NCBI GenBank assembly: GCA_028485475.2
Contig: CP144143.1
Coordinates: 1,302,001 to 1,366,000 of the forward strand
From: Chitinophagaceae bacterium C216
GTDB lineage: Bacteria; Bacteroidota; Bacteroidia; Chitinophagales; Chitinophagaceae
Length of the DNA stretch: 64,000 nt
Direction: 5' to 3'
In this document: positions 1,667 to 20,300 of the stretch, one piece after another
Position numbering within the stretch: the stretch's first letter is position 1
Layout: every line of letters begins with the position of its first letter
Translations under genes and position numbers: made by a program
The notes under the pieces: generated by a model
The model's database searches: none
The model's input: the letters and a program-made list of their open reading frames with translations, nothing else
What the model was told of the DNA's origin: nothing

Positions 1667-2824
1667 TTAGATGTAGCGTTTGAGGTGTTGCAGTAATCTT
1701 ATAGGACGAGAAAGTACATACATCCATTTGGGTTGTTGCTGAGCATTGGTTGTGTCGTTATAATTAGGCGTGAGTATGTATTTTACCACCGCTTTTACGA
1801 GTTTTATTTTTTCAAATAAGCCGGATCGTAACCGATACGCTACTTTAATGATGGCGCTTAAGGGTACGCGACCGGCTTCTTTCTTTTTAAGCAACCATTG
1901 AATAATTTGCTCTCCCTGCTGTGTTATAAAACGCGTGTCAGGATAAGCAGGATATTCTGTAGCCTGAACACTAAAAAGTTTTTCGATTATATAGGCATTC
2001 AGACTGTAATAACCGCTTAATAGCTGCGGAAGGCGGTAACAGGTGCTTTGCTTACATTTCTGGGTGAGAAGAGCTATATCTATCATGCACCGGAGCGTGG
2101 GATAACGGTCAACCAGACCGTGATTGACAGTAAGTAAAGGGAGATACTCGCACAAGGAGAGGTCTTTTCCTACTTGCCATGATGGGCCGAATAGATCGTT
2201 AAAGGAAATGTTAGTAGCCAGGTAGGAACCTACCGGTTTATAATGAAATTCATACAAGAAAAAACCTTCTGGGCTGTCATCATAGCAAATCACATCTTTC
2301 TGATGCTTCAGGTACTTCTCTTCAGAGTCTTCGAATAATGTTGCTCCTTCTACTTTGTAGCCGGCAGTCTTGAGCATTGCAACTAGGCGGGGAATATCTT
2401 CTTCGTTTACGATAAAATCAATATCACTGAATTCACGAAGCGAAAGATGATTGTATAGTTGTTGTGATAAATGGATGCCTTTATATACCTGAATAGGTAT
2501 TTGATGTTGTTGCATTAATGCGACCAACTGATGGGCTTTTTGTTGACAACGAAAAGCGCGAACACTATGGTTCAAATATGCCTGTTTGAGTTGCTCTTTG
2601 AACTTGAGGTCTAAACTTTGAAGAGGAAGGGTTGTTTCGTATACGATATATCTTATCCGGTGTACTTTGGCAAGATGGTACACTTCATCCCAATCGAGGG
2701 TATGGGCATGAACGAACTGCTCCAATGCCGACAGATCTTCAGTTTTTAGAAATACCCTGCAGCATAGCATTAACATTGCTATCTCATTACCATATTTTTT
2801 TTGTATGTCACTGATGGCAATCAT
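1667..2824 (-). CDS. Nucleotidyltransferase-family protein of the lasso peptide operon
   Basis: This 385-residue protein resembles the uncharacterised nucleotidyltransferase family PF14907. It has a VYKG motif at 113-116, then R130 and the metal-binding DIDFIV motif with D134 and D136. It is the last gene of the RiPP operon and overlaps the ABC transporter gene by 4 nt (ATGA), which implies translational coupling. Homologues occur in paeninodin-type lasso clusters beside an HPr-kinase-like gene. As I recall, in pseudomycoidin-type clusters this family acts on the phosphorylated C-terminal serine, adding a sugar or extra phosphate. That role here is inference. The gene ends 5 bp from the convergent T9SS gene. 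Confidence 0.8.
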   Translation of the reverse strand: MIAISDIQKKYGNEIAMLMLCCRVFLKTEDLSALEQFVHAHTLDWDEVYHLAKVHRIRYIVYETTLPLQSLDLKFKEQLKQAYLNHSVRAFRCQQKAHQLVALMQQHQIPIQVYKGIHLSQQLYNHLSLREFSDIDFIVNEEDIPRLVAMLKTAGYKVEGATLFEDSEEKYLKHQKDVICYDDSPEGFFLYEFHYKPVGSYLATNISFNDLFGPSWQVGKDLSLCEYLPLLTVNHGLVDRYPTLRCMIDIALLTQKCKQSTCYRLPQLLSGYYSLNAYIIEKLFSVQATEYPAYPDTRFITQQGEQIIQWLLKKKEAGRVPLSAIIKVAYRLRSGLFEKIKLVKAVVKYILTPNYNDTTNAQQQPKWMYVLSRPIRLLQHLKRYI

Positions 2825-4605
2825 AATTGCTGCATGTTATAAAGCCGGGTAAATGCTCCGTTTTTATTAACGAGCTCATCAAATGTACCTTCTTCAATAA
2901 TACGACCTTCATCCATCACATAGAGATAATCTGCAATTTTCAGATTATATAAACGATGTGTGATAAGGATAACCATCTTATCTTTTGCCAGATTTTTTAT
3001 CTGCGTAAAAATCTCAAACTCTGCCTGAGCATCCAATGCACTGGTGGGTTCATCCAGTACGATTAATGAAGCATCATCTCTGTAAAAAACACGGGCCAGT
3101 GCCAGCTTTTGCCATTGTCCTCCGCTTAATTGTTCGCTCTCATGGAATGTGCGTCCCATGCGTGTCTGATAGCCTTTTGATAATTTACTGATGAATTTAT
3201 CAGCCCCGGATAATACGGCAGCGTTCTTTACATCGTCGATTGTCTTTTGTGTAGCTGAAGCACCTAAAACAATGTTTTCTTCTACTGTAAAGAAATATTT
3301 TTCGAAATCTTGGAATAAAAATACCGTATGTTGTCGGTAGGAAGGGATATCAATATCTTGGAGTTCGGTATTGCCAAAGTGTATAGTGCCCGATTTCTGT
3401 TCGTAAAGTCGGGCTAGAATTTTGATCAAGGTAGATTTTCCAGAACCATTTTCTCCTACAATAGCGATGATTTGTCCCTTGTTACAAGTGAGGGAAACGT
3501 TTTGCAACACTTCTCTACCATCAGGCGTATAACGGAAACTTATATTACTTACAGAGAGATTATTATCGGTAGAGGGGAAGGGTAATGTGTGATGGTTGTT
3601 GTTTATGATTTTAATATCTAGGAAGGCGAACAAGTCCTGTAAGAAAATACGTTGTTGTAAGATCTGAACAACGGATTGTAAAAAATTTTTGGAATTGTTC
3701 TGTAAACTTTGAAACCCTTGTATGTAAATCACAAATAGGCCGAGTGTTATAGCACCAGCTACAGCTTCTTTAGCAAGTAATGCAAAGATTATAGCCATGG
3801 CCACAATCTCTGCTGATTCAGCAATAAGGCTGTAACGTGTAAGGCGTTTGTGGAGTTGTTGTTTTTGTAAGCGGATATAGTGGCGAATATTGATAAACTT
3901 CTCAATGAAAAACTTACCAAAGTTGAAAACACGTACTTCTTTTGCAGGGCTTACTCCCGTTAAGGTGTAATGCAGATAATTAGCTTCTCTTTCTAGGGGC
4001 GCAAGTTTTCTTTCTTGCTGCATAGTGGCAATGCCAAAATACCATTTAATAATGGCCAAGGGTAGCGAAAAAGCAATAAATAAAATAGCAAAATAGGATT
4101 GCACACTAATAAATAAAAGCAAGAGGAACAAAAGCGCAAATCCCGATGTAATAAAGGTGTTGTAGCTGGTCAAAAGCATACTTGCTCGATATAGAGATTG
4201 TTGTTGTGCTAGATGCAGGCTATCATGATAATCGGGATTTTCATAATAATTATAATCTACTTGTACAGCTTTATCAAGAACCTTTTGCGACAAGAAATCT
4301 GTGAGTTTTAATTGAAAAATTGTGGAGACATAAGTAGCGCATTGTTGGGTGACAGCAAGTAACAGTTGCGCTCCAAGGAATAATATAATTGCGGGTAGTA
4401 TTTCGGAAAAGGGAAGCTTGGCGGTAACTTTTTCTACTAATGTTTTTATAAAATATAATGATATCACAGGTAAAAAAGCCTGCAGTATATGCAATGCAAA
4501 ACTGAGTATTGCAAGACGTTTACTGGCTTGCCATAGCAGTAATAAAGAGCGTTGAATATTTTTTTTCAGCTCTTTAAGGTTAAAGTTTTTATAAGTAATG
4601 GTCAT
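2821..4605 (-). CDS. Lasso peptide ABC exporter (LarD/McjD type), fused TMD-NBD
   Basis: A 594-residue half-transporter expected to work as a homodimer in the inner membrane. Residues 1-330 hold the hydrophobic transmembrane domain (clear segments near 35-55, 70-90, 153-190, 260-300). Residues 350-594 are the ATPase domain: Walker A GENGSGKST (384-392), Q-loop Q432, signature LSGGQ (493-497), Walker B LIVLDEP (514-520) and H-loop H550. It overlaps the upstream transglutaminase-like gene and the downstream nucleotidyltransferase gene by 4 nt each. In lasso clusters this protein exports the mature peptide and gives self-immunity. There is no N-terminal C39 peptidase domain, as expected when a separate B2 protein removes the leader. 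Confidence 0.93.
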   Translation of the reverse strand: MTITYKNFNLKELKKNIQRSLLLLWQASKRLAILSFALHILQAFLPVISLYFIKTLVEKVTAKLPFSEILPAIILFLGAQLLLAVTQQCATYVSTIFQLKLTDFLSQKVLDKAVQVDYNYYENPDYHDSLHLAQQQSLYRASMLLTSYNTFITSGFALLFLLLLFISVQSYFAILFIAFSLPLAIIKWYFGIATMQQERKLAPLEREANYLHYTLTGVSPAKEVRVFNFGKFFIEKFINIRHYIRLQKQQLHKRLTRYSLIAESAEIVAMAIIFALLAKEAVAGAITLGLFVIYIQGFQSLQNNSKNFLQSVVQILQQRIFLQDLFAFLDIKIINNNHHTLPFPSTDNNLSVSNISFRYTPDGREVLQNVSLTCNKGQIIAIVGENGSGKSTLIKILARLYEQKSGTIHFGNTELQDIDIPSYRQHTVFLFQDFEKYFFTVEENIVLGASATQKTIDDVKNAAVLSGADKFISKLSKGYQTRMGRTFHESEQLSGGQWQKLALARVFYRDDASLIVLDEPTSALDAQAEFEIFTQIKNLAKDKMVILITHRLYNLKIADYLYVMDEGRIIEEGTFDELVNKNGAFTRLYNMQQL

Positions 4606-5069
4606 CTGTTTTTGTAGATACTTTGTATGATGTACTCCTCAGGATTACAAAAACCTGTAATCATTCTTCCTCCTGCCATGGTCCAGGCATGGGCCTGTAT
4701 TTCATTTTTTGCTATGTCTTTTTTAAAACCTATGAATATTAGATAAGGAATATTATAAAGATTGCATAATAACTTAGCTTGATATGCCTGATGCCTGCAT
4801 ACATTTTTCCAGGGAATATATTTGGAGACGATATGGATGGCTTTGGCGATATCATTGATTTTTGTATGGGTTTTTTCATCAGCAGCAATGGACGATGATA
4901 CGGTATTTTTCGCACTATTTTCAGTCAAAGCTAATCTTTCTCCGAATCGGGCATATCGATTGAAAAAGGCAAAAAGAAAACCGGTATACAGCGAAAAAAC
5001 AAATGTCTGTAATATCATTATTTTCAACTGAGGCCTTAATCTCGCAAATGTTTTTATTTTATTTATCAT
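4602..5069 (-). CDS. Lasso peptide leader peptidase B2 (transglutaminase-like)
   Basis: A 155-residue protein with the layout of lasso B2 proteins. A hydrophobic segment near residues 17-37 is followed by a transglutaminase-like cysteine protease fold with catalytic C91 (in KNVCRHQA) and H127 (in AHAW). The Asp of the usual triad is not obvious; the usual strand after the His is present as GGRMITGF. The family cuts the leader from the precursor in an ATP-dependent way together with the PqqD-like B1 protein. It overlaps B1 by 4 nt and the ABC transporter by 4 nt. Stretch 48-70 (many Ser, Thr, Lys) between the membrane segment and the fold looks like a linker. Confidence 0.9.
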   Translation of the reverse strand: MINKIKTFARLRPQLKIMILQTFVFSLYTGFLFAFFNRYARFGERLALTENSAKNTVSSSIAADEKTHTKINDIAKAIHIVSKYIPWKNVCRHQAYQAKLLCNLYNIPYLIFIGFKKDIAKNEIQAHAWTMAGGRMITGFCNPEEYIIQSIYKNR

Positions 5070-5329
5070 GCCTCCACTACCAGCTTTTTTTCTATAAAAG
5101 TGCGGATGATATTATGCACTGCTTGGGAACACTCTTCTGTCGATATATCGTACTCGGCTTCCAGTTGCTGGATGATGTCCTCGACCGGAGTATTGTTTTC
5201 AATACCTTTCAGGATTTTATAAGAAGTCTCGTTGAGCGAAAAATATTCGTTTGTAGCACTGTTAAAGGCTACACCTTCTTCACCCAGCTGGGTTACTAAA
5301 ACATCTTTGGCATTGAATTGATAACTCAT
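5066..5329 (-). CDS. Lasso peptide B1, PqqD-like leader recognition protein
   Basis: An 87-residue PqqD-family protein, the discrete RiPP recognition element of split-B lasso systems. It shows the typical order: a strand ending in LGEEGVAFNSATNEYFSLNE, a helix TSYKILKGIEN, then a C-terminal helical part beginning DIIQQLEAEY. In this family the protein binds the precursor leader through a YxxPxL-like motif and delivers it to the B2 protease and the cyclase. The precursor found at 7388-7495 carries WxxPxV at the matching place. It lies 57 nt after the asparagine-synthetase-like gene and overlaps B2 by 4 nt. Confidence 0.92.
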   Translation of the reverse strand: MSYQFNAKDVLVTQLGEEGVAFNSATNEYFSLNETSYKILKGIENNTPVEDIIQQLEAEYDISTEECSQAVHNIIRTFIEKKLVVEA

Positions 5330-5386
5330 AGATACAAAAATATTAAATGAGTAACGGGTTTTAAAATAATTGTTTTCGGGTTCGTA

Positions 5387-7279
5387 TTAATCAAAATGCA
5401 TCTGTAGAAATAAACCAAAATGTATCGCCTTCAGGAGGCACTGTATTTGAAAGGGGGACGTATAGGGCTGGGCCAAATAGGTTTGCCACGCTGCCGAAAG
5501 CTTTTGCACATCAATACAAGAGGTTGCGGCAGCACTTTTTGAGAGCAATGCTATAGCCTCAGTGATCTCGTGCTGCTGAGCTTTTACACGATATAGGATA
5601 TCTGAACTTTGTAATCCCTTTTTCTTTTCAAAGAGTACGCTGTCCGGTATCCGCCCTTTCATCATGCGTTTTACCAGCATGCGATTGTTGTGATGCTCGT
5701 CAAAAAAGGCTTCATTGGGTAGGCTGAAAAAGAATTCCATCACATCTTGGTCTGCACAAGGGTCGCGCATTTCCACTCCGTAAAAATGATTGTGTGCTGC
5801 TCCGAACAAACTGCGTATTTGGTAAAGTGATACGAACTGTTCTTTAAGTTCGTTAATGTCTTTTATGTTAAGCTGAAAGCTTTTTTGATTTGTCTGAATG
5901 TCCTCCAGTATCTGATATTTTTGCAGTAGCTGCTCATTGGCAAATATCATTGTAACATAATCAGCAAGGTCATTATGAGCGCGTTTGCGCTTTTCAAAAT
6001 ATTGAGGATATAGTGTTTTTACTATGGGCTTGGCTATATGAGATTTCAGGTATCTGAAAGGATGTTGCAGTACCTGTTTCCATTGTAAAGGTAATAATTG
6101 AGGACGTCCTTTGAAAGAAATACTGCCGTTTCCCCCCTCACCAGTTAATAGAACGCCAAAGCCTTTTTGTGAAGCTGTGCGAAAAATATCCTGTATCCAA
6201 TATGCATTAAAGGCTCCATGAATAGGAGCATCGTATATTTTTAACACATCTATCATTCCTTGCAGAATGCTGTAATTGGCGGAATTCAACAATATCGGGT
6301 TGATATTACCGGCTGCTTTTACTGTTTCCAGGATAAGAGGCGTTTCATCCAGTATTTGTTTCTCTGCTATATCGATACCTTGTAACTCTTTCTGAAAAAG
6401 AGGCACATGACTGAAGGTGGTAAGAGGTATGTTTTTTTGCTGGAGTAAGCGTGCTGCAATGTAACTTACTGCCGAGCTATCCAGTCCTCCACTAAGCATG
6501 GAGGCTATCGGTTTGGGACTCTTTAATCTTACAGCTACTGCATGAGAAAAAATGTCATACATCTCCTCTGCATAGTCCTGTTTATTCTTGTATATCCTAA
6601 TTGAAGTATACTGTGGGTACCAATACCTGTTTAGGGTAACTTTACCATCTTTTTTTAAAGTTAACGTATGAGCAAGGGGAATTGTGTGAATGCCTTTAAA
6701 GAATGTTTGGTGATTCGCTTCCAAGTGATCCCATAGGGTGAGCATCCGCAACCAATACTCTTCGTTCAGTTGCTTTTGATAGGAGGGGAGTGTCAGCAAG
6801 TTTTTAAGGGATGAGCTGAAATAAAACCCCGTAGCATCCTGATAGTAATACAGCGCTGTATAGCCCATCGGATCTCTGGCTATAAATAGTTCTTGTGTTT
6901 CATAGTTCCACACAGCAAAACTCCAATCACCTCTTAGTTCATTTACACAGTCTTTTCCCCATTTGAGGAAGGACTGCCACATAAGGTATTCAGAGGTATA
7001 GCCATCGGATATCTCAATTCCCAATTTTCGACATAAGGCTGGGCTATTGTCTATTCTGCCCTGTGCTGTAAATAGAAAAGTAGCATTCAAAAAAATAGAT
7101 GCTTCTTGCGAATCTGTAGTATGCGGCAGTGTTCGAATATGCCCTACTCCGGTATTATTATGAATGCGCTGATTATATGCTCCCTGTGACAGTACTGCCA
7201 AAGTTGTGCACATCCGCTCAAGTGTGTTTGCAACGGATTTACCAGGTTCAAATAACCAACATCCGAAGATCAGACTCAT
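5387..7279 (-). CDS. Lasso peptide cyclase, asparagine-synthetase-like (LarC/McjC type)
   Basis: A 630-residue protein with an N-terminal Ntn-type glutaminase-like domain (1-210) and a C-terminal asparagine synthetase domain with the PP-loop SGGLDSS at 263-269. Family role: it adenylates an Asp or Glu side chain of the core so that the free N-terminal amine can close a macrolactam ring. The N-terminus reads MSLIFGCW, so the Cys2 nucleophile of true glutamine-dependent asparagine synthetases is missing. This fits a cyclase that uses a peptide amine and not ammonia from glutamine. It is preceded by the precursor gene and a strong terminator hairpin, and followed by B1. An ordinary asparagine synthetase is unlikely in this setting. 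Confidence 0.92.
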   Translation of the reverse strand: MSLIFGCWLFEPGKSVANTLERMCTTLAVLSQGAYNQRIHNNTGVGHIRTLPHTTDSQEASIFLNATFLFTAQGRIDNSPALCRKLGIEISDGYTSEYLMWQSFLKWGKDCVNELRGDWSFAVWNYETQELFIARDPMGYTALYYYQDATGFYFSSSLKNLLTLPSYQKQLNEEYWLRMLTLWDHLEANHQTFFKGIHTIPLAHTLTLKKDGKVTLNRYWYPQYTSIRIYKNKQDYAEEMYDIFSHAVAVRLKSPKPIASMLSGGLDSSAVSYIAARLLQQKNIPLTTFSHVPLFQKELQGIDIAEKQILDETPLILETVKAAGNINPILLNSANYSILQGMIDVLKIYDAPIHGAFNAYWIQDIFRTASQKGFGVLLTGEGGNGSISFKGRPQLLPLQWKQVLQHPFRYLKSHIAKPIVKTLYPQYFEKRKRAHNDLADYVTMIFANEQLLQKYQILEDIQTNQKSFQLNIKDINELKEQFVSLYQIRSLFGAAHNHFYGVEMRDPCADQDVMEFFFSLPNEAFFDEHHNNRMLVKRMMKGRIPDSVLFEKKKGLQSSDILYRVKAQQHEITEAIALLSKSAAATSCIDVQKLSAAWQTYLAQPYTSPFQIQCLLKAIHFGLFLQMHFD

Positions 7280-7315
7280 GACTGGGATTAAAATAAATAT
7301 CGGTATGGTAATGGC

Positions 7316-7341
7316 AAAAAAAAAGCAGAGAAATTCTCTGC
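7316..7341 (-). terminator. Intrinsic terminator between precursor and cyclase genes
   Basis: The plus strand holds the perfect inverted repeat GCAGAGAAATTCTCTGC (7325-7341), preceded by nine A (7316-7324). Read on the minus strand this is a hairpin followed by nine T. It lies 46 nt after the precursor stop and 37 nt before the cyclase start, where partial termination would yield more precursor mRNA than enzyme mRNA, a common RiPP operon layout. Confidence 0.85.
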
Positions 7342-7387
7342 TAATAAGTTTTTATTATAAGCTACAACCTCAAGCTTTCAACTGTTC

Positions 7388-7495
7388 TTAGCTAGTTAAT
7401 TCTTCTAAACTGGCAGCATCACCTCCTGCACTTCCACCGGCATTGATTTCAAGCTCTGTAACTTCTGGTAAAATCCATTGTTTTTTAGTTTCCAT
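7388..7495 (-). CDS. Lasso-type RiPP precursor peptide (35 aa)
   Basis: A short gene with ATG at 7495 and TAA at 7388-7390. The leader METKKQWILPEVTELEIN contains W7-x-x-P10-x-V12, a match to the YxxPxL leader motif read by PqqD-like B1 proteins. The remainder, from Ala19, reads AGGSAGGDAASLEELTS and ends in Ser35. The only Asp is D26; counting from A19 gives an 8-residue ring (A1-D8), from G20 a 7-residue ring, from N18 a 9-residue ring. Paeninodin, from memory, also starts its core with Ala and ends in a Ser that its HPr-like kinase phosphorylates. Odd points: no Thr at leader position -2 for any of these cuts, no aromatic or basic residue in the tail to plug a lasso, and a very Gly/Ala-rich acidic core. 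Translation initiates in an A/T-rich context without Shine-Dalgarno. Confidence 0.82.
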   Translation of the reverse strand: METKKQWILPEVTELEINAGGSAGGDAASLEELTS

Positions 7496-7577
7496 AATAC
7501 TTTTTGATTTAATGATTAATACTTTTTGTTAATAACAAAGGATAATAGGTTTGTGTTTCTATTGAGCCGCAAGATAA

Positions 7578-8501
7578 CTAATTATCATTATTATTCAAAA
7601 TATTCTTTATAATTTGTGGTAATGTATCAAAAGTGTCGTGATTTAATGGTCTGGTAATTAATAAGTTGGGTACTGTTTGTAGTATCTGGCTAATTAATAA
7701 AAACTGCTGTTTATGCATTTGAAAGGCAGGAATCCAATGTCGTCGGTATACATTGTCGGCCAATGCTTTAAAGGCATCTGTGCTTTTAATTTTCAGTGTT
7801 TGAATTTGCGGATAGGCGTCTTTCTGCATAAAAATAATACGTTCTACTTCTGCCGGGGTATCTGCAAATTGGCTATGGAACAAAAAGCCATATTTATCTT
7901 TTTCTCCATCATATATAATTTGTTTTTCATCAATATTGAGCATCTTTTGTTTGTCCAATGCATTCTCCCATAACCTTATCATAGGATAAGATGCCTGTGC
8001 ATAGCATTTACCGTCTTTTACGAAAAGAATGGCGGTATCATCGGTGAATGGTGCAAATCCTAATTCCTGTAGTTTTACTGCGAGCGTGGATTTTCCAGTA
8101 CCTGAGGGAGCTGCAAATAGCACTACTTTGCCAGGCTGTGTAAAAACGCCCGATACATGAAAAGGAATCAAATTGCGTTGCAATAACATTGCTGCCAAGC
8201 AATTGGAGTAGAAGTAGAGTAAATATCTGCTATAATCGTAATGGATGGGTTCGATAATGATGTTTTCCCCTTTAGATATGTAGAACTTTATTTTTTTCGG
8301 CAATGTGAAGATCATTTCTTCGGCATTGCAATAGGTGAAATAATCGGCCTGGATACCGGGAGTTTTCAGTGTTTGAGGCACCTTACCTAGTTTAACCGTT
8401 ACAGGACGTTCTGGGGATATATTTTTATTTAATGGCAATAACGCAGGTAGTTCAATATCGGAGAGCACGGGAATACCAAATGCCAGATAACGATAGGTCA
8501 T
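7578..8501 (-). CDS. HPr-kinase/phosphorylase-like peptide kinase of the lasso operon
   Basis: With the start at 8501 the protein is 307 residues and begins MTYRYLAFGIPVLSDIELP, the usual beginning of RiPP-cluster HPr-kinase-like proteins. It has a kinase core with FHVSG (H115), Walker A APSGTGKST (131-139) and D154/D155. The frame stays open up to 8696, but that stretch overlaps the upstream gene and contains the -7 box at 8547-8554, so the long form is rejected. In paeninodin-type clusters this family phosphorylates the side chain of the precursor's C-terminal Ser, and the precursor here ends in Ser. It is the first gene of the operon, 82 nt before the precursor start. A true HPr kinase of the phosphotransferase system is unlikely: no HPr gene is nearby and the protein lacks the classic N-terminal domain. 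Confidence 0.88.
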   Translation of the reverse strand: MTYRYLAFGIPVLSDIELPALLPLNKNISPERPVTVKLGKVPQTLKTPGIQADYFTYCNAEEMIFTLPKKIKFYISKGENIIIEPIHYDYSRYLLYFYSNCLAAMLLQRNLIPFHVSGVFTQPGKVVLFAAPSGTGKSTLAVKLQELGFAPFTDDTAILFVKDGKCYAQASYPMIRLWENALDKQKMLNIDEKQIIYDGEKDKYGFLFHSQFADTPAEVERIIFMQKDAYPQIQTLKIKSTDAFKALADNVYRRHWIPAFQMHKQQFLLISQILQTVPNLLITRPLNHDTFDTLPQIIKNILNNNDN

Positions 8502-8593: not shown

Positions 8594-9499
8594 TTACTGT
8601 CCTTTTACATTCATTTTTAGTATATAAATGCTGTTGCTCGCGGTAATGAATAATATGTCTTTGTTTTTGCCGGCAAAACAAATATTGGCTGTCCATTTTT
8701 CCGGTACCGGAATGTGTGCGATTCTAACACCGTGGGGGTTATACACTGTTACGCCCCGTCCTGCCAGATATAGGTTGCCTTTTTCATCCAATGTAATGCC
8801 GTCGGCACCTTGCGGAGCAAAGAGGTGTTTATTGCCCAGGCTTCCATCGGGTCGGATGTCAAATCGGTATATTTTGTGGCCATCGATATCTGCAACAAAC
8901 AGATACTTGCCATCAGCGGAGCCTACAATACCATTGGGTTTGACCAGCTCATCCGTTACCCCAATAGGTTTTGTGGCGCCTTTGGGGAGGTAATAGACCT
9001 TTTGTTCTTTTATTTCAGGTTCGGTACGCGACCAATAATTGCGCTGATAGTAGGGGTCGGTAAAGTAGATACCTCCTTTTTTATCAATCCATAAATCGTT
9101 TGGTCCATTCAATTTTTTTCCATTCATGCTACTTACTAAAACCTTCACCTCACCGTCGGGGGCAATCGCCCACAATTCATTGTTTTCATCCGCGCAGGCG
9201 ATGATGTTTCCTGCAGCGTCAATAGCCAGTCCATTAGCTCGGCCGGCATTATCCTTAAATACTTTAAGCGCATTTTTTTCAACGTCGTAGTACCATATAC
9301 GGTTATTCGGCTGGTCGGTAAAATAAACATTCCCATATTGGTCGGCTACGGGACCTTCCGTAAAGCTAAACTCATTACTTATGCGCTGGAGTGTTGCTCC
9401 TGATTTTATAATACCAAGTGAGTCAAACACAACTTGTTGTGCGAAAAGCATATGTCCTATGCTCAGCAATATCATTAAAATTACAGCTCTCATAACCAT
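8594..9499 (-). CDS. SMP-30/gluconolactonase/LRE family protein, secreted
   Basis: A 301-residue protein with a signal peptide (MRAVILMILLSIGHMLFAQ; the second Met at 9493 is an equally good start). The mature part is a six-bladed beta-propeller of the SMP-30 type, with repeats such as EGPVADQYGNVYFTD, NGLAIDAAGN, GPNDLWIDKKGGIYFTDP and KPNGIVGSADGKYLFV. These carry the metal-binding Glu, Asn and Asp positions of lactonases. It is expected to act in the periplasm on a sugar lactone; the substrate cannot be read. It is upstream of and codirectional with the RiPP operon (92-nt gap), so read-through is possible, but I do not count it as part of that pathway. Confidence 0.85.
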   Translation of the reverse strand: MVMRAVILMILLSIGHMLFAQQVVFDSLGIIKSGATLQRISNEFSFTEGPVADQYGNVYFTDQPNNRIWYYDVEKNALKVFKDNAGRANGLAIDAAGNIIACADENNELWAIAPDGEVKVLVSSMNGKKLNGPNDLWIDKKGGIYFTDPYYQRNYWSRTEPEIKEQKVYYLPKGATKPIGVTDELVKPNGIVGSADGKYLFVADIDGHKIYRFDIRPDGSLGNKHLFAPQGADGITLDEKGNLYLAGRGVTVYNPHGVRIAHIPVPEKWTANICFAGKNKDILFITASNSIYILKMNVKGQ

Positions 9500-11675: not shown

Positions 11676-12050
11676 ATGGCAGACATTAAATCATTAGCAG
11701 AAAGCCTGGTAGGTTTAACTGTAAAAGAAGTACAAGAACTGGCAGATCTTTTAAAAAATGAATACGGTATCGAACCTGCTGCTGCAGCAGTAGTAGTTTC
11801 TGGCGACGCTGGTGGTGGCGCTGGCGCAGCAGAAGAAAAGACTGCGTTCGATGTAATTCTGAAAAACGGAGGGGCTTCTAAACTGAATGTTGTTAAGATT
11901 GTTAAAGATCTTACAGGTTTAGGTCTGAAAGAAGCTAAAGAATTAGTAGACGGTGCTCCGAAACCAGTTAAAGAAGGTGTTTCTAAAGCTGAAGCTGAGG
12001 ATATCGCAGCTAAATTAAAAGAAGCTGGTGCGGAAGTAGAAATAGCTTAA
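11676..12050 (+). CDS. rplL: 50S ribosomal protein L7/L12
   Basis: Starting at the ATG at 11676 ([14 protein letters not shown]) the protein is 124 residues, the normal size; an in-frame ATG at 11649 would add nine residues not seen in the family. N-terminal dimerisation domain, Ala/Gly-rich hinge (about residues 38-53), and a C-terminal factor-binding domain with KTAFDVIL and [20 protein letters not shown]. It forms the ribosomal stalk that recruits translation GTPases. It is the last gene before a strong terminator. Confidence 0.97.
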
Positions 12051-12070
12051 TGGAATTGTCCTAATCGATA

Positions 12071-12108
12071 AAAAATCCTCTGCTGATTATTCAGCAGGGG
12101 ATTTTTTT
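12071..12108 (+). terminator. Terminator after rplL
   Basis: Stem AATCCTCTGCTGA (about 12074-12086) pairs with TCAGCAGGGGATT (12091-12103) across a TTAT loop, with one T-G wobble, and ends in seven T. It closes the rplKAJL transcript and separates it from rpoBC. Confidence 0.9.
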
Positions 12109-12124
12109 GAGAATACCAAAATAA

Positions 12125-12156
12125 TTTGTTAATTCTAATATGGATCATTATCTTTG
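12125..12156 (+). promoter_or_regulatory. Strong Bacteroidota-type promoter downstream of rplL
   Basis: TTTG (12125-12128), a 20-bp spacer and TATCTTTG (12149-12156) match the consensus fully. The next gene begins only at 12708, so this promoter either gives a leader of about 545 nt or drives a non-coding transcript. Confidence 0.65.
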
Positions 12157-12707
12157 TTGGTGAAACAGATTTGTATTTCAGGATTCTGTAGCCCTTATCT
12201 CATGCCTAGCATGAGAAATCATGTTCATTGAAGCATTAAGTCAGATGATAATAATCAAATAAGACCATTTAGTATGAGTGTTTGCTGTATGCGTTCAGTG
12301 AGAATGACCTCTAAACCTTAATGACTCTTAACCTAACTCAATAGATTGGATATGTATTCCTCAACTACGTATTTGAAACTTATTCGTATTACTTAATCGG
12401 TTTATAGAATTATTGAAAAGTAAAGTGGCTGAAAACTTTATTATTTATTACATCGGCTATCAGTTAAAAGTTTTTTCTATGAACTGCTTTACATGAATCT
12501 GTATTAGTTTCTAGCCGTGTAGTATGATTAGACAGCAATTAAAATAATAAATAGGATAGAATTGTAATCCTTAAACTCTAAATAATTTAGCCCTTAAGGT
12601 GGGTTGTGTTACCCCCTTTGTTTTGAATTACTTTTCTAAAAAAAAATCCGCGACTGCATTTGCACATATTGACTTCCTAACTAATAAGCTCTAAAACAAT
12701 TTTAATT
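12157..12707 (+). other. 550-nt stretch without a gene
   Basis: No convincing reading frame on either strand. It contains a perfect hairpin CTCATGC-CTA-GCATGAG (12199-12215) about 40 nt after the predicted transcription start, then A/T-rich sequence with no terminator. It may be a long untranslated leader of the 12708 gene, a small RNA, or decayed sequence. Confidence 0.4.
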
Positions 12708-14912
12708 ATGAATAAGCATTTACGACTTAACCTATCAAGCTCTAACACCGTTTATCAGAGCAGGAGAAGATTGCCTGCACTCATCAGTTTCATAGTGGCA
12801 GTATTATGCATTACTAGCATAGCTTTTGCTGCAATACCAGATGAATACAAGAATCAGTATCTACATGTCGCTTCTAATACGGGTCCTTTTGGAAATGATC
12901 TATCAGTTAGAACCTCTCTACTGGGGTTTAATGATGCGAGTCATGTAATTAATGGAAATCCCAACTCCGCTGCAACTTTGGGTCTTGGGGGATTATTAGG
13001 TGCATGGATTGAAGTAGAGTATGACGACGTGTTTCCGGCTGGTACTGAGGTGAGTTTTATAACTAGCGCAGGCTTGCTGAATGTATCACTTTTTGGCGGA
13101 CTTGAACTTACCACCTATAATGGCAATACTCAGGTGTCTCAAAAGAGTGGTAGAAGTCTTCTGGGTATTTCATTACTCGGTGGTAAGGATAAAATAGGCT
13201 TGGTATCTGAAGGGGCTTTTAATCGGGTAAGACTCACTGTTAATGGGGTAAATCTAAGTGTACTAACTTCAATCTTAGGCGCAGGTGCTACGGTGAGCGT
13301 GTATTATGCAGAGGTGATGGTGCCTAAAGCTGGTGTATTTAATCCCAACGAATGTAATGCCGAAGTACGTATTAATCAAACTGATTTTCCCGCTGTAGCT
13401 AATTATACTAGTCCGGCCCTTTTGGATGGGATTGCCAATGCCGATGCGGTTAATCTTATCAATTCAATGTCAAATGTAGCAAACGTAGTATCGTCAGATG
13501 TTGATGATTATGCTAGTTTATCTCCGTTAAACGTTACCGTGTTAGGAGATACTTATCTTTCTGTGAAGTTATTAGCAGGGACTATTCCTAATAATACCTA
13601 TGCCGGCTTTGAAATCTCTAATACAATTGGGCTGTTGTCTAATTTGAATTTACTAGGGGGGATAACAATTCAAGCATATAATAACGGTACGTTAGTGCAA
13701 GAGGAGGGGAGCTTTAACTTGTTATCGGGTACTGTTATTGGAGCGGAAACGGAAAGACATACCGTGGGTATGTTAGTCACCAATGGGGAATATAATGAAT
13801 TACGATTGAAGTTTGGAAATGCAGTGCTTTCTGCTCTGGCCACTTTAGGCGAAACACGTATCTATGGAGTTGTAGTAAAACAATTTTGCCCGCCTAGTGG
13901 ATCACTGAATGGTACAGTAATTTTAGCCAATGGACATCCTTCCACCAATGGAATGGGCATAACTGTAAATTCTCGGAATGCAGGTTTGGCAAATATTGCT
14001 TTAGTGGGTAATGAGTCCATTGGTGCTACCATGGGTAAATTGATCGATAACTTATTTGATAACTTTGTAAAAATAAGCAGCCTACTGGGTGCTCAGTTAG
14101 CAAATGGCGCCACCCTCTCTGCTGCTACTCCTGGATACACATTTAATCAACCCGCTAAGTTGGCTGGATTTATCATCAAAAGGTCTAATCCGCTGCTTGA
14201 TTTAGTATTAATGAAAGGAGTGAAGATCAAAACTTACAATAATGGGCAATTACAAGAAGAGGCTAGTGTGGACAATAATTTGCTGAAGCTTAATGTTCTC
14301 AACTTAATTAATATTGGGGATTTCCCACCGGATGCTGAAGCTGTGTATATGACAACAAGTCTGCCATTCAACGAAATTAGAATGGAGGTAGATGATCTGG
14401 CGGGCGTAGGCGACGAATTGCAGGTATTTGCAGCCTTTGCAAATGCTGATGAGCCACCAGCGCTCCCTGTAACGTTTGGGGATGTACACGCTACATTGGA
14501 AAACAACAACCTCTTTATTAAATGGGCAACCCTCAAGGAAACCAACAATGCAGAGTTTATTGTGGAAGCTTCTACTGATGGTAAAAATTGGACTCAGATT
14601 GGCAAACTCAACACAAAAGCTAATGGTGGAAATTCAGATATTACCCTAGAATACACCTTTACTAAAGGGCTGGGAGGATTAGTCTTAGGAGGATTTGGTA
14701 TTATGGCTCTTTTAAGCATGCCATTCTTCAGAAACCGTTTTATAAGAGGTGGTTTGCTGGTAGCATTCTTGATTTTAGTAGGTGTATCATGCAGCAAGAA
14801 CAAAGATTATATCAGCAACCCCGATGTGAGTGACTTGTACATACGGATCGCACAGGTAGATAAAAATGGGGATGTTACCTACTCTAAAGTAGTAAAAGTG
14901 ATAAAGAAATAA
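12708..14912 (+). CDS. Exported repeat protein with split FN3-like/membrane-hairpin/CSK C-terminal module
   Basis: A 734-residue protein of unknown function. An N-terminal signal region with basic SRRR and a hydrophobic core ends near AFA (39-41). Three related repeats of about 190 residues follow; each has I/L-x-[TA]YN-[GN] (near 136, 323, 511) and a later [FY]N-x-[VIL]R motif (near 171, 362, 553). Residues 586-734 form a module: strand motif PVTFGDVHA, then TLKETNNAEFIVEASTDGKN as in FN3-like domains next to T9SS tails. A hydrophobic hairpin (about 654-694, with a RNRFIR turn) follows and ends in VSC695SK, and the domain resumes with IRIAQVDKNGDVTYSKVV. The SCSK text looks like a lipoprotein box but is internal. 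The same 149-residue module ends the next gene. Surface or envelope location is inferred. Confidence 0.75.
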   Translation: MNKHLRLNLSSSNTVYQSRRRLPALISFIVAVLCITSIAFAAIPDEYKNQYLHVASNTGPFGNDLSVRTSLLGFNDASHVINGNPNSAATLGLGGLLGAWIEVEYDDVFPAGTEVSFITSAGLLNVSLFGGLELTTYNGNTQVSQKSGRSLLGISLLGGKDKIGLVSEGAFNRVRLTVNGVNLSVLTSILGAGATVSVYYAEVMVPKAGVFNPNECNAEVRINQTDFPAVANYTSPALLDGIANADAVNLINSMSNVANVVSSDVDDYASLSPLNVTVLGDTYLSVKLLAGTIPNNTYAGFEISNTIGLLSNLNLLGGITIQAYNNGTLVQEEGSFNLLSGTVIGAETERHTVGMLVTNGEYNELRLKFGNAVLSALATLGETRIYGVVVKQFCPPSGSLNGTVILANGHPSTNGMGITVNSRNAGLANIALVGNESIGATMGKLIDNLFDNFVKISSLLGAQLANGATLSAATPGYTFNQPAKLAGFIIKRSNPLLDLVLMKGVKIKTYNNGQLQEEASVDNNLLKLNVLNLINIGDFPPDAEAVYMTTSLPFNEIRMEVDDLAGVGDELQVFAAFANADEPPALPVTFGDVHATLENNNLFIKWATLKETNNAEFIVEASTDGKNWTQIGKLNTKANGGNSDITLEYTFTKGLGGLVLGGFGIMALLSMPFFRNRFIRGGLLVAFLILVGVSCSKNKDYISNPDVSDLYIRIAQVDKNGDVTYSKVVKVIKK

Positions 14913-14933
14913 ACCTAACCTAAAGTGGTATCT

Positions 14934-14961
14934 AAAGCCGTCCGAAAGGGCGGCTTTTTTT
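14934..14961 (+). terminator. Terminator after the 12708-14912 gene
   Basis: AAAGCCGTCC pairs with GGGCGGCTTT around a GAAA loop (one T-G wobble) and is followed by a run of T. A clear intrinsic terminator, so the next gene needs its own promoter. Confidence 0.9.
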
Positions 14962-14989
14962 ATATTGTATAAATTATCTTCATTTCATA

Positions 14990-15020
14990 TTTGATTTATT
15001 GTATACATATTGTAATTTAG
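14990..15020 (+). promoter_or_regulatory. Putative promoter of the 15042 gene
   Basis: TTTG (14990-14993), a 19-bp spacer, and TAATTTAG (15013-15020), which matches TAnnTTTG at 7 of 8 positions. It sits 21 nt before the start codon and just after the preceding terminator. Confidence 0.5.
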
Positions 15021-15041
15021 TAGTGCCAAAATCTGTTACCT

Positions 15042-16073
15042 ATGAAATACATAATTACTTTATTGTTTTTTGCCATTTCTCATCCTGTTTTTGCCCAGTA
15101 CACTTTTTTCGAAGAAAATATGGGTGGCACTTCTGTAGGAGCATCCATTTTGTCAGCAAACAGTTATACAGGTTATCTTAATTATGGAGCAGTGGCTTAT
15201 GCAGCATCTTCAGGTAGTAGTACTGCTTCAATAAGAAGTAACAGCAGTAGTTCATCAGGTTATTCCACAGCATCGGGTGGCAACTTTCTATTTCTAAGCG
15301 GCAATAACAGCTCCTTTTTCACAATTCAGAACATCTCCATCTTAGGAGCTACAAATGTGCGCGTAGCATTCGGGGTTAGCAAAACCAGTACAGCGAGCGA
15401 TGGAAGCACCTTAACGGTGCAAGTAAGTGTTGATGGGTCGGGGGCTATAAGTTTTTCGCCTTCATTACCGACTGGAGCTGGTACTACGCAATGGTATTAT
15501 ATCGTTTCTTCCGTATCTATTCCCTCCGGTTCATCTCTCAGTATTAGTTTTTACAATACTAGTGGACCCGAAAACTCTGTAAGTTACCGTATTGATGATA
15601 TAGCTGTACTTTCTGATACGCCCATGCCTGTTGTTTTCGGGGATATTGCTGCTTTATTGGATGGTGAAAACCTGTATGCTAGCTGGACCACTTTACAGGA
15701 GATTAATAACGATTATTTTGAAGTGCAACTGTCGGATGATGGTAAGCATTTTTCAACTATTGCTACTTTAAAGTCGAAAGATGGAAACTCCGATAGGCCT
15801 CAGCATTATGAAGTGATGGCGCCATTAAAACAATGGAAGGGCCTGATGGTATTGCCCGCTCTCCTATTAAGTTTGTGCTGGGGTTCTCGAAGAAGCGCGC
15901 TTGCCAAGATGCTTACAGTTATATTGATGGGAGGATTATTGGGGGCAACTGCATGTAGTAAGGACAGCTCCGCAATTGACAGTGTTATTGATGGTAAGCT
16001 CTTTCTGCGCATCAAGCAGGTGGATGTTGACGGAAAATACGAGTACAGCAAAACCATACAGGTGATCCGTTAG
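15042..16073 (+). CDS. Exported protein with jelly-roll-like domain and the same split FN3/CSK module
   Basis: A 343-residue protein. A signal peptide (MKYIITLLFFAISHPVFAQ) is followed by a Ser/Gly-rich beta domain (about 20-190) ending in VSYRIDDIAVLSD, the style of jelly-roll 'choice-of-anchor' domains on exported Bacteroidota proteins. Residues 195-343 repeat the 149-residue module of the upstream gene: PVVFGDIAALL, TTLQEINNDYFEVQLSDDGK, hydrophobic segment about 267-281, a SRRSALAK turn, second hydrophobic segment, TAC305SKDSS, and FLRIKQVDVDGKYEYSKTI at the end. The first half has no similarity to the upstream protein, so the C-terminal module is the shared part and probably sets location or processing. 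Function unknown. Confidence 0.75.
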   Translation: MKYIITLLFFAISHPVFAQYTFFEENMGGTSVGASILSANSYTGYLNYGAVAYAASSGSSTASIRSNSSSSSGYSTASGGNFLFLSGNNSSFFTIQNISILGATNVRVAFGVSKTSTASDGSTLTVQVSVDGSGAISFSPSLPTGAGTTQWYYIVSSVSIPSGSSLSISFYNTSGPENSVSYRIDDIAVLSDTPMPVVFGDIAALLDGENLYASWTTLQEINNDYFEVQLSDDGKHFSTIATLKSKDGNSDRPQHYEVMAPLKQWKGLMVLPALLLSLCWGSRRSALAKMLTVILMGGLLGATACSKDSSAIDSVIDGKLFLRIKQVDVDGKYEYSKTIQVIR

Positions 16074-16103
16074 TGCAAATAGGGAAATGCCTGGTACAGC
16101 GGC

Positions 16104-17060
16104 TTATTCGGTTTTGATATAATGCTTGATTTTGTCAAAGACATCATTAGGCTGTACCAGGCTTTTTATTGCTTCTATGTCGTTAATACTACCATTTTCT
16201 TTGCGGTATTTTAGAATCTGATAGGCCGTTTGTGAATTGATATAGGGGTGATTGTTTAATTCATCGTAGGTTGCCGTATTAACGTTAATTTTCTGCACCA
16301 TTTCGGCATTTACTTGCAAATGAGGTTTGATCTTATTGAAAACTGAATCGGCCAGCCCATATGTTTCTCCTATCTGCTCTATACTATAAAAACCACCTAA
16401 TTTATTCCTGAAGTTAATGATGCGTGTTGCTAGCTTGTCGCCGATGCCGTATAGGGATTTAAAGGTTTCTCGGTCGGCACTATTGATTTCAATAAGCGTG
16501 GGACGCGACTTTACCACATCTTCCATATATGTGCTGCGTAATGGCAAAGAAGAACTGGGGGCACTAGTGGGTGGGGTAATGACAATATAAGGCAGTAATC
16601 GTTCATATTCCTCCTGCTTGAGCCCGTAAATCTTTTGTAAATCCTCAGCTTTTTTGAACTTGCCTCCTTTATTACGGTAGTTGACTAAAATCTGTATGGT
16701 CTTTTCGCGTAAGCCTAGCCTGCGTAAATCCTCTACTTCTGCCGTATTAGGATCAAAGACGAAAAGTGGGGTATTAGGAGTAGGTTGGGAAAAATTTTCG
16801 GATTGAATATACTGATATTTATTCTTATCTTCACTATTCGTTTTTGATGGGTTAGACATGGGCTTCTGCTGCAATGCGTTAGCTGCCATCAACCAAGCTG
16901 TATCAGCTGAAGTGGTTATATCGGTATACCTTCTATGACTGGTGGTGATGTAAGGTAATATGATAACGCAGCAGATGGCTAAAAGTAGAACAAGGATGGC
17001 AATTCTTTCTTTTTTTGAGAATGTAAGGTGTTTATTTACAAAGGTTGAGCGCATTTTCAT
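16104..17060 (-). CDS. ComEA-like helix-hairpin-helix protein, membrane anchored
   Basis: A 318-residue protein with one N-terminal membrane segment (about 20-38, AILVLLLAICCVIILPYI) and several helix-hairpin-helix units: VEDLRRLGLREKTIQILVNY, INSADRETFKSLYGIGDKLA, and INVNTATYDELNNHPYINSQ. ComEA proteins bind DNA at the envelope during natural transformation. This Bacteroidota form is longer than typical ComEA, with three to four HhH repeats, so DNA binding is likely and a competence role is inference. It lies on the opposite strand between the two exported-protein genes and rpoB. Confidence 0.8.
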   Translation of the reverse strand: MKMRSTFVNKHLTFSKKERIAILVLLLAICCVIILPYITTSHRRYTDITTSADTAWLMAANALQQKPMSNPSKTNSEDKNKYQYIQSENFSQPTPNTPLFVFDPNTAEVEDLRRLGLREKTIQILVNYRNKGGKFKKAEDLQKIYGLKQEEYERLLPYIVITPPTSAPSSSLPLRSTYMEDVVKSRPTLIEINSADRETFKSLYGIGDKLATRIINFRNKLGGFYSIEQIGETYGLADSVFNKIKPHLQVNAEMVQKINVNTATYDELNNHPYINSQTAYQILKYRKENGSINDIEAIKSLVQPNDVFDKIKHYIKTE

Positions 17061-17159
17061 AGGTTTTTTAACAAATATACAAATAAACTTATATGATGTA
17101 TTATGTTAAAAATTGGCAGAATTATTGCGGATAAGTTTTTTCTTTACCGGATATTCCCC

Positions 17160-17167
17160 TAACTTTG
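17160..17167 (+). promoter_or_regulatory. rpoBC promoter -7 box
   Basis: TAACTTTG matches TAnnTTTG. A T-rich -33 region (TTTTT at 17136-17140, 19-bp spacer) is present but lacks the G of TTTG. It gives an rpoB leader of about 135 nt. Confidence 0.65.
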
Positions 17168-17230
17168 CAATCCTTTTATTTTGGCCAATAAAATTTTGAC
17201 TTTACGAAATGTGTTCAAGTAATTGAATTT

Positions 17231-17268
17231 CAATAGGATTTCTTTTAGCAATAAAAGTGATCCTATTG
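17231..17268 (+). promoter_or_regulatory. Long stem-loop in the rpoB leader
   Basis: CAATAGGAT (17231-17239) pairs perfectly with ATCCTATTG (17260-17268); inside it CTTTTA pairs with TAAAAG around a GCAA (GNRA) loop, with a 2x2 internal loop TT/TG between the stems. No T-run follows, so it is not a terminator. A feedback or stability element for rpoB mRNA is possible. Confidence 0.5.
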
Positions 17269-17308
17269 GCATTTCTACAGGTCAATCATTAAAACCGGTT
17301 TAATATTT

Positions 17309-20300
17309 ATGTCTGCTACAAGCGTACAATCGAGAATTGATTTCGGAAAAATCAAACATTTAGCTGAAACACCTGATTTGCTCGAAGTTCAAATCCAATC
17401 TTTTAAAGAATTTTTTCAATTAGAAACTACTCCAGATAAGCGTAAGAATGAAGGGTTGTTCCGTGTGTTCAAGGATAACTTTCCGATTACCGATACCAGG
17501 AACATCTTCGTGCTGGAATTTCTGGATTACTTCATCGATCCGCCCCGTTACACCATCGAAGAGTGTATGGAGCGTGGATTAACTTATGCGGTTCCTCTGA
17601 AGGCTAAACTACGTTTGAGCTGTAATGACGAGGAGCACGTGGACTTCCAGACTATTGTTCAGGATGTATTCTTAGGTAATATTCCATATATGACCCCCCG
17701 CGGTACCTTTGTGATCAACGGTGCTGAGCGTGTGGTGGTTTCTCAGTTGCATCGTTCTCCCGGTGTATTCTTTGGTCAGTCTGTACACCCTAACGGTACT
17801 AAAATATATTCAGCTCGTGTGATTCCGTTTAAAGGAGCATGGATGGAGTTCGCTACCGATATTAATAACGTGATGTATGCTTACATCGATCGTAAAAAGA
17901 AATTCCCGGTAACGACTTTATTACGTGCTATCGGTTACGAAACCGATAAGGATATTTTGGAGCTGTTTGGTATGGCTGATGAAGTTCCCGGAGATAAAAA
18001 ATCGCTTCAAGCACATATCGGTAAACGCCTAGCCGCTCGTGTACTACGTACTTGGGTTGAGGACTTCGTGGATGAGGATACCGGAGAGGTGGTATCTATC
18101 GAGCGTAACGAAATTGTAATGGAGCGCGATACAGTATTGGATGAAGAAGCTATCGAAACCATTGTAGATATGGGAATCGATACTGTATTTGTACAAAGAG
18201 AAGATGTGGGCGGTGATTATGCCATCATTTATAACACTTTAAACAAAGATACTTCGAACAGCGAGCTGGAAGCGGTTCAGTTTATCTATCGTCAATTGAG
18301 AGGTGCTGACGCTCCGGATAACGAAACTGCTCGCGGTATTATTGATAAATTGTTCTTTAGCGACAAGCGTTACGACTTAGGCGAAGTAGGTCGTTATAAA
18401 ATTAACCGTAAACTGGGAATCGACGTATCGCTTGAGCAAAAAACACTTACTAAAGAAGATATTATCGAAATCATCAAATATCTGGTACGCCTTACCAATG
18501 GTAAAGCGGAGATTGATGATATCGACCACTTAAGTAACCGTCGTGTGCGTACCGTAGGAGAGCAGTTGTATGCTCAGTTTGGTGTAGGGTTGGCTCGTAT
18601 GGCCCGTACCATCCGCGAAAGAATGAATGTACGTGACAACGAGGTGTTCACTCCTGTGGATCTGATCAATGCCAGAACACTTTCTTCTGTGATTAACTCT
18701 TTCTTCGGAACATCACAGTTGTCTCAGTTCTTGGATCAGACCAACCCATTATCCGAAATTACCCACAAACGCCGTATCTCAGCTTTGGGTCCAGGTGGTT
18801 TAAGCCGTGAGCGTGCAGGCTTCGAGGTGCGTGACGTACACTACTCACACTACGGTCGTTTGTGTACCATTGAAACTCCTGAAGGACCCAACATCGGTTT
18901 GATTTCTACACTTTGCGTTCATGCTAAGATTAACGAAATGGGCTTCATCGAAACCCCCTATCGTAAGGTAGAGAACGGAAAGGTAGATATGAAGGAGCTG
19001 AAATACTTGAGTGCTGAAGAAGAAGATACCGCTAAGATCGCACAGGCCAATGCGCCAATCGATGACAACGGTAATTTCATCAACGATAGAGTAGAAAGTA
19101 GAGAAACAGGAGATTTCCCTGTCCTGGATAAAAGCGAGGTGGAATACATGGATGTGGCTCCGAACCAAATTGTGGGTCTGAGCGCCTCCTTAATTCCGTT
19201 CCTTGAGCACGACGATGCCAACCGTGCACTGATGGGATCCAACATGCAGCGTCAAGCTGTTCCATTATTGCGCCCAGATGTACCTATTGTGGGTACCGGA
19301 TTGGAAAGCAAGGCGGCACGTGATGCTAGAATCCAAATTCATGCAGAAGGTGACGGTGTAGTAGAATATGTGGATGCTAACGAAATTCATGTGCGTTACG
19401 AAAGAGATGTCACCCAAAAACTGGTAAGCTTCGAAGAAGATCTGAAAGTATACAAGCTCACCAAGTTTATTAAAACCAACCAAGAAACCTGTATCAACCT
19501 AGTGCCTGCTGTGAAGAAAGGACAAAAAGTAAAAGCGGGTGACTTCCTTACTGAAGGTTATGCAACTCGCGACGGAGAGCTGGCATTGGGTAAAAACCTC
19601 AAAGTGGCCTTCATGCCATGGAAAGGATACAACTTCGAGGATGCGATTGTGATTAGTGAGCGTGTGGTAAAAGAAGATCTCTTTACTTCTATCCACATTT
19701 CGGAATATGAGCTCGAAGTACGCGATACTAAGTTAGGAGAAGAAGAGCTGACAGCCGACATTCCTAACGTTTCTGAAGAAGCGACTAAAGACCTGGACGA
19801 AAACGGTATTATCCGTATAGGTGCGCAAATTAAAGAAGGTGATATCCTAATCGGTAAAATTACTCCTAAAGGAGAGAGCGATCCTACACCTGAAGAAAAA
19901 CTGTTGCGCGCTATCTTTGGAGATAAAGCAGGAGATGCCAAAGACGCCTCGCTGAAAGCTCCAAACGGAGTAGAAGGTGTGGTAATTGGCAAAAAGCTGT
20001 TCCAGCGTGCTAAGAAAGATAAAAATGCTAAGGCCCGTGAAAAAGCGGCCATGGAAAAGCTGGAAAAAGTACACGAGAAGAATGTTCAGGATCTGCAAAA
20101 CATCTTGCTAGATAAACTGGGCACTTTACTGGAAAATCAGGTTTCTGCCGGAGTGAAAAACAACTTCGACGAAATCGTGATTGGTAAAGGCGTGAAGTTT
20201 ACTTCTAAAAACCTAGCTTCTATTGACTATACCAATGTGAACCCGCTAGGATGGACTAATGATGAAGTGATTAATGAGCAGGTGAACACATTGCTGCACA

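Follow-up and report, generated by a model that had tools for sequence, protein, structure and literature searches.

Lasso operons that carry both a kinase and a nucleotidyltransferase have already been published. The closest described set is that of pseudomycoidin (psm) from Bacillus pseudomycoides, in which lasso enzymes are joined by an HPrK-like kinase and a nucleotidyltransferase and the peptide ends in Ser. In the available text of PMC8498205 and PMC9266682, the kinase phosphorylated this C-terminal Ser and PsmN added one or two hexoses. The paeninodin family is marked by a WxxPx[L/V] leader, a kinase, discrete B1 and B2 proteins, an exporter and a C-terminal Ser, and an excerpt of PMC13381572 described it as restricted to Bacillota. 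In the case of Bsf from Bradymonas sediminis, likewise a kinase operon with a residue other than Thr at position −2, the precursor carried YxxPxL at −17 to −12 and Ile at −2, and BsfK phosphorylated core Ser3 (PMC10368454, in part). Here, we analysed a window of 64,000 nucleotides (nt) from Chitinophagaceae bacterium C216, a member of Bacteroidota (contig CP144143.1, positions 1,302,001 to 1,366,000), which contained a seven-gene operon related to these systems. Its product is probably a macrolactam peptide of the lasso class that is exported and tailored as in pseudomycoidin. What is new is a precursor without Thr at −2, its very short core of Gly, Ala and Ser and, apparently, the setting outside Bacillota.

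The operon lay on the minus strand between window positions 1667 and 8501. It consisted of seven intact genes, each started by ATG, in the order K-A-C-B1-B2-D-N, with 4-nt overlaps at B1/B2 (5066-5069), B2/D (4602-4605) and D/N (2821-2824). The initial annotation had given this order and these three overlaps, and both the coordinates and the frames agreed with it. Since the kinase together with the nucleotidyltransferase corresponds to the pseudomycoidin set, the product is likely a phosphorylated, possibly glycosylated, lasso peptide. The phosphate of 80 Da anticipated earlier was thus retained, and a hexose is expected in addition. The likeness to pseudomycoidin was drawn from published descriptions rather than from psm sequences, and it does not imply that PsmN belongs to PF14907. 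The operon differed from psm in host phylum, in the absence of Thr(−2) and in its short Gly/Ala/Ser core.

The precursor A (7388-7495, minus strand) was an ATG-started open reading frame (ORF) of 35 amino acids, METKKQWILPEVTELEINAGGSAGGDAASLEELTS, for which neither Pfam nor NCBIfam gave a match up to an E-value of 1. Length was rejected as evidence for A, as dinucleotide shuffling of the 298-nt gap between K and C gave an ATG-started ORF of at least 35 codons in 240 of 2000 cases. We compared A with the precursors of three relatives (L001, L002 and L005). The summed local similarity was 124, which ranked first among 566 ORFs of 25-90 amino acids in the window, the next being 77. None of 10,000 residue shuffles of A reached this sum, and the single scores were reached by 1, 20 and 12 shuffles. 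A was held to be non-random because its similarity sum was unmatched by other small ORFs or by shuffles, not because of its length; judged by these alignments, the resemblance is not due to chance. The leader carried W7-x-x-P10-x-V12 (WILPEV), which fits the pattern [Y/W]xxPx[L/V/I/F/A], and A ended in Ser35, as did 8 of the 12 precursors of relatives that were tabulated. The 35-codon gene with this leader had been proposed earlier and stood up to the comparison; the missing Thr(−2) had been overlooked, and the boundary of the core is uncertain.

K (7578-8501, minus strand, 307 amino acids) aligned with the kinases of L001, which is the annotated paeninodin operon of Priestia, and of L002 (E 2e-23 and 4e-26). 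Its frame was open to an ATG at 8696, and the start at 8501 agreed with the N-termini of the relatives' kinases. H115, G134, G136, K137 and S138 were invariant in both alignments of relatives' kinases. D154 and D155 were conserved save for Glu at D154 in L003 and Glu at D155 in both copies of L039. HPr kinase is related to the P-loop fold of PEPCK. A structure model of K (pLDDT 84) gave 130 Foldseek matches at E ≤0.001; the best 50 of these were all PEPCK (best E 3e-9), and HPrK itself was absent from those 50. With the NCBIfam model of HprK-related A proteins, K scored 28 bits, under the cut-off of 200. K carried the full H-K-S-D-D set reported for lasso kinases (BsfK H148/K169/S170/D186/D187; PMC10368454, in part). 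These residues suggested that K phosphorylates a Ser of the precursor, most likely the C-terminal Ser35. The kinase gene of the Priestia operon (L001:8617-9552) is annotated as an 'aldolase'.

C (5387-7279, minus strand, 630 amino acids) was an asparagine-synthetase-like putative macrolactam cyclase, with 96 bits for Asn_synthase in Pfam and the lasso cyclase model NF033535 as its best NCBIfam match. It shared 25-28% identity with the cyclase annotated in L001. In the comparison with four relatives, RDP..D and G-x-Q..D were invariant, and the SGGLDS loop was kept with SSGMDS in L003. Residue 2 was Ser, not Cys, in all five aligned cyclases, including C. This meant that the glutaminase nucleophile was missing, as it should be if the peptide itself supplies the amine.

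B1 (5066-5329, minus strand, 87 amino acids) was a discrete PqqD-like RRE protein (PqqD 55 bits, cut-off 23.4). Its closest solved structure was 9x90_B, a lasso B1 chain (E 1e-5), followed by TbiB1 and TfuB1 (E 0.02). We read 9x90_B as the PbaB1 of PMC13381572, since the residue numbers fit, and mapped the pocket residues listed in the excerpt of that paper through the ungapped alignment of B1 with 9x90_B. The Trp contacts L65, Y69 and V71 of PbaB1 corresponded to L56, Y60 and I62, and I44 to T35, so that three of the four were kept or similar. E66 was kept, and Gln79 was replaced by A70. The second pocket consisted of five hydrophobic residues, F30, L32, I74, F78 and L83. B1 is predicted to bind the WxxPxV leader of A; the proposal that W, P and V are the expected ligand of the PqqD-like protein was supported by both WILPEV and the PbaB1-like pocket. 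B2 (4602-5069, minus strand, 155 amino acids) was a transglutaminase-like cysteine peptidase that passed the lasso-B2 model NF033537 (57.3 bits, cut-off 33) and scored 57 bits for Transglut_core3. C91 and H127 were invariant in all four aligned proteins, and B2 is predicted to cut off the leader.

D (2821-4605, minus strand, 594 amino acids) was an MsbA-like ABC exporter, with 110 bits for ABC_tran and 257 bits for the MsbA model (cut-off 602). No C39 peptidase domain appeared among the best 25 of its 35 Pfam matches. N (1667-2824, minus strand, 385 amino acids) belonged to the NTP_transf_5 nucleotidyltransferases (PF14907, 102 bits, cut-off 31.2). The same family was found in N of L002, in two proteins of L005 and in one of L037, and K115-G116 and D134-x-D136 were conserved in all three aligned proteins. 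A structure model of N was too poor (pLDDT 40) and was left unused. By analogy with PsmN, N is predicted to add a group to the phosphorylated Ser.

An HprK-like kinase, an RRE, a nucleoside triphosphate (NTP) transferase and an MsbA-like exporter are also common to the linear polyphosphorylated peptides (LPPs) of Bacillota, according to an excerpt of PMC13381572. The product might then be a linear phosphorylated peptide. This is very improbable, as a cyclase and a lasso B2 are encoded, no signal peptidase was found among the Pfam matches listed for the seven proteins, and the leader carries W. In the same excerpt, LPP operons have a signal peptidase and no cyclase, and LPP leaders carry Y.

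Several observations weigh against this reading. C scored 265 bits with NF033535, under the curated cut-off of 525, and B1 scored 45.7 bits with the lasso PqqD model, its best NCBIfam model, under the cut-off of 80. The paeninodin precursor model NF033524 gave no match to A up to an E-value of 1; the precursors of L001, L002 and L005 scored 57.7, 46.1 and 23.6 bits (cut-off 27). A had no Thr at any position from W+9 to W+17, with G20, G21 and S22 at W+13 to W+15, and no register of A satisfied every lasso rule. The core was rich in Gly, Ala and Ser and had no aromatic or basic plug. No close relative was found by which conservation within the core could be judged. K could also act elsewhere, as Ser22 would be core position 3 in one register, the position used by BsfK. 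In addition, an excerpt of PMC9266682 allowed that PsmN may act as a nucleotidyltransferase, with a host enzyme then glycosylating its product.

The absence of Thr was examined by tabulating 12 precursors from nine loci, with L038 left out as a near copy of L037. Precursors had been searched for in 13 loci, and none was found in three of these (L004, L035 and L040). All 12 had a Thr at 13 (six), 14 (two) or 15 (four) residues past the leader W or Y. They were chosen by leader similarity, which favours Thr-bearing ones, so this count is descriptive. With Thr set at −2, an Asp or Glu fell at core position 7, 8 or 9 in 10 of the 12, the exceptions being L037c and L041. Thr(−2) is generally taken as a rule and was termed invariant in an excerpt of PMC10885120. 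A had no Thr between T13 and T34. Its alignments with L005 and L001 were gapped exactly at the Thr of the relatives, by two residues (LEIN-ET-AGG) and three residues (N-KTM-LGGS), respectively; the alignment with L002 was ungapped. These gaps would also be expected if A had decayed, a deletion of two or three residues having taken Thr(−2) so that the product is no longer made efficiently. However, all seven frames were intact, and Bradymonas processes a precursor with Ile at −2, with Ile or Val at −2 predicted elsewhere (PMC10368454, in part), which makes decay improbable.

The missing Thr(−2) leaves the boundary between leader and core uncertain. Asp or Glu fell at core positions 7-9 in seven registers of A, and four of them were ranked. 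Two of these are put forward with equal and tentative weight. The cut A19|G20 would release the 16-residue core GGSAGGDAASLEELTS, with a G1-D7 ring and Asn at −2, and it leaves a plausible tail while keeping the sequence similarity. The cut A23|G24 would release the 12-residue core GGDAASLEELTS, with a G1-E8 ring and Ser at −2, and it preserves a hydroxyl at −2 and the spacing, which is 15 as in L037. The cut N18|A19 (core AGGSAGGDAASLEELTS, ring A1-D8) is doubtful; it would place Ile at −2, as documented for the lasso peptide of Bradymonas (PMC10368454, in part). The cut S22|A23 (core AGGDAASLEELTS, ring A1-E9, Gly at −2, spacing 14) is improbable, and some other register slightly more so. 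Either the leader was shortened (A19|G20 or N18|A19) or the cut was shifted (A23|G24 or S22|A23). The Trp-to-(−2) spacing of 13 seen in L001 and L002 occurred in none of the four ranked registers; in addition, A differed from the paeninodins in escaping NF033524 and lacking T(−2), and from Bsf in that Ile(−2) was one register among several.

A short core is plausible because the kinase-bearing loci L034 and L039 also predict cores of 13 residues. These precursor candidates, from metagenome-assembled genomes of Chloroflexota (L034:10031-10159, core ISQGQNFDADGFS) and Riflebacteria (L039:16844-17026, core NAGPTFLDSGAFS), both had Asp8 and a C-terminal Ser. The initial annotation had stated that a split B1/B2 with an asparagine-synthetase-like cyclase defines lasso biosynthesis, which is not in itself proof of a threaded product. 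Alternatively, the lasso-type cyclase may yield a branched-cyclic phosphopeptide, a macrolactam without threading, in keeping with the missing plug and the tail of just four residues in two of the four ranked registers. This is unlikely, given that such enzyme sets are known to make threaded products and that L034 and L039 have similarly short cores with Asp8, which are likewise predictions. A threaded product remained the preferred reading. Of the earlier proposal, the operon with its lasso-type enzymes, the precursor missing from the annotation and the predicted phosphate were supported; the lasso topology is a prediction.

We infer the catalytic steps, threading, the phosphorylation site and export from characterised homologues, mainly those of paeninodin, pseudomycoidin and Bsf, as described in parts of PMC8498205, PMC9266682 and PMC10368454. 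B1 would bind the leader through W7, P10 and V12. K, guided by B1, would phosphorylate the linear precursor, most likely at Ser35; it was placed before B2 and C because the paeninodin kinase was inactive on the threaded peptide (PMC8498205, in part). B2, helped by B1, would then remove the leader. C would adenylate the side chain of an Asp or Glu and join it to the freed N-terminus, so that the tail is trapped in the ring. N may modify the phosphate with a hexose or a nucleotide-derived group, and D would export the product.

Relatives were sought in plasmids, genomes and viral contigs. In plasmids, the matches to C, K, N and B2 by tblastn all stayed below 60% identity. Among them were the annotated paeninodin operon of Priestia aryabhattai (L001), in whose stretch N was not seen, and an unannotated paeninodin-type operon on a plasmid of Paenibacillus cellulosilyticus (L002:4830-12082), with the same seven genes in the order N-C-A-K-B1-B2-D. 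Scanning genomes with just the cyclase as query matched three stretches, none confirmed as a close relative. A motif-steered scan gave eight distant loci (27-31% identity) from 11 matched stretches, titled Chloroflexota, Caldilineaceae, Desulfuromonadaceae, Halomonas, Vreelandella, Riflebacteria, Sphingomonas and Deinococcales. It found no relative in Bacteroidota, a weak negative as the scan covered only cyclases that carry one motif variant. In viral_contigs, 600, 151 and 8 stretches were matched and none was confirmed, with 14 loci and 14 pattern loci outside that check; two further searches there matched nothing. Kinase homologues occurred in 10 of the 13 mapped loci, that of L041 being weak (E 5e-4). 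The Halomonas locus (L037:10065-16826) held four lasso-like precursor candidates, all with a C-terminal Ser, and two kinase homologues.

A hairpin of eight pairs with a loop of three, followed by a T-run, lay between A and C (7342-7324, minus strand; computed −10.7 kcal/mol, an energy without shuffle control). Terminator-like sites in the scanned region numbered 13 against a shuffle mean of 6.5. Strong hairpins also stood 3' of 6 of the 12 relatives' precursors, namely the six that were folded (L001, L002, L005, L034, L037a and L037b), likewise without shuffle control. The hairpin probably lets the precursor transcript exceed the enzyme transcript. A promoter before A is not claimed: scored with what we take to be the Bacteroidota consensus, the best site had two mismatches, equal to C, and those of K and B1 had three and one.

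The RpoB encoded at 17309-21112 matched best 9n9p_C (2082 bits) and 8dkc_C (1922 bits), presumably Bacteroidota RNA polymerases; the others among the matches listed reached at most 1289 bits. An SMP-30/gluconolactonase-like gene (8594-9499, same strand) lay directly upstream of K, and nothing ties it to the operon. Three genes at 12050-17309, between genes that we take to be rplKAJL-like and rpoB, encoded a 734- and a 343-amino-acid protein without Pfam match at 1e-5 and, on the opposite strand, a helix-hairpin-helix protein.

In titles and abstract openings, no characterised lasso peptide from Bacteroidota appeared among the matches listed, and Bacteroidetes were named as an underexplored lasso source by Tietz, as told in an excerpt of PMC7533575. 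A is a precursor that current NCBIfam models miss. With a full tailoring set, no Thr(−2) and apparently a place outside Bacillota, this operon offers a compact, naturally occurring test of which features the peptidase recognises. The role of phosphorylation and glycosylation in lasso peptides is described as unclear in parts of PMC13381572 and PMC7533575. One speculative and rather unlikely reading is that B1 and B2 abandoned Thr(−2) and cut at Ser22-Ala23|Gly24, and that the phosphate (and sugar) on Ser35 acts as the stopper of the tail (ring GGDAASLE, tail ELTS), because the 12-residue core has no bulky plug. If so, phosphorylation and glycosylation of lasso peptides would gain a structural purpose, and this mini-lasso type would lie close to the 13-residue cores predicted for L034 and L039.

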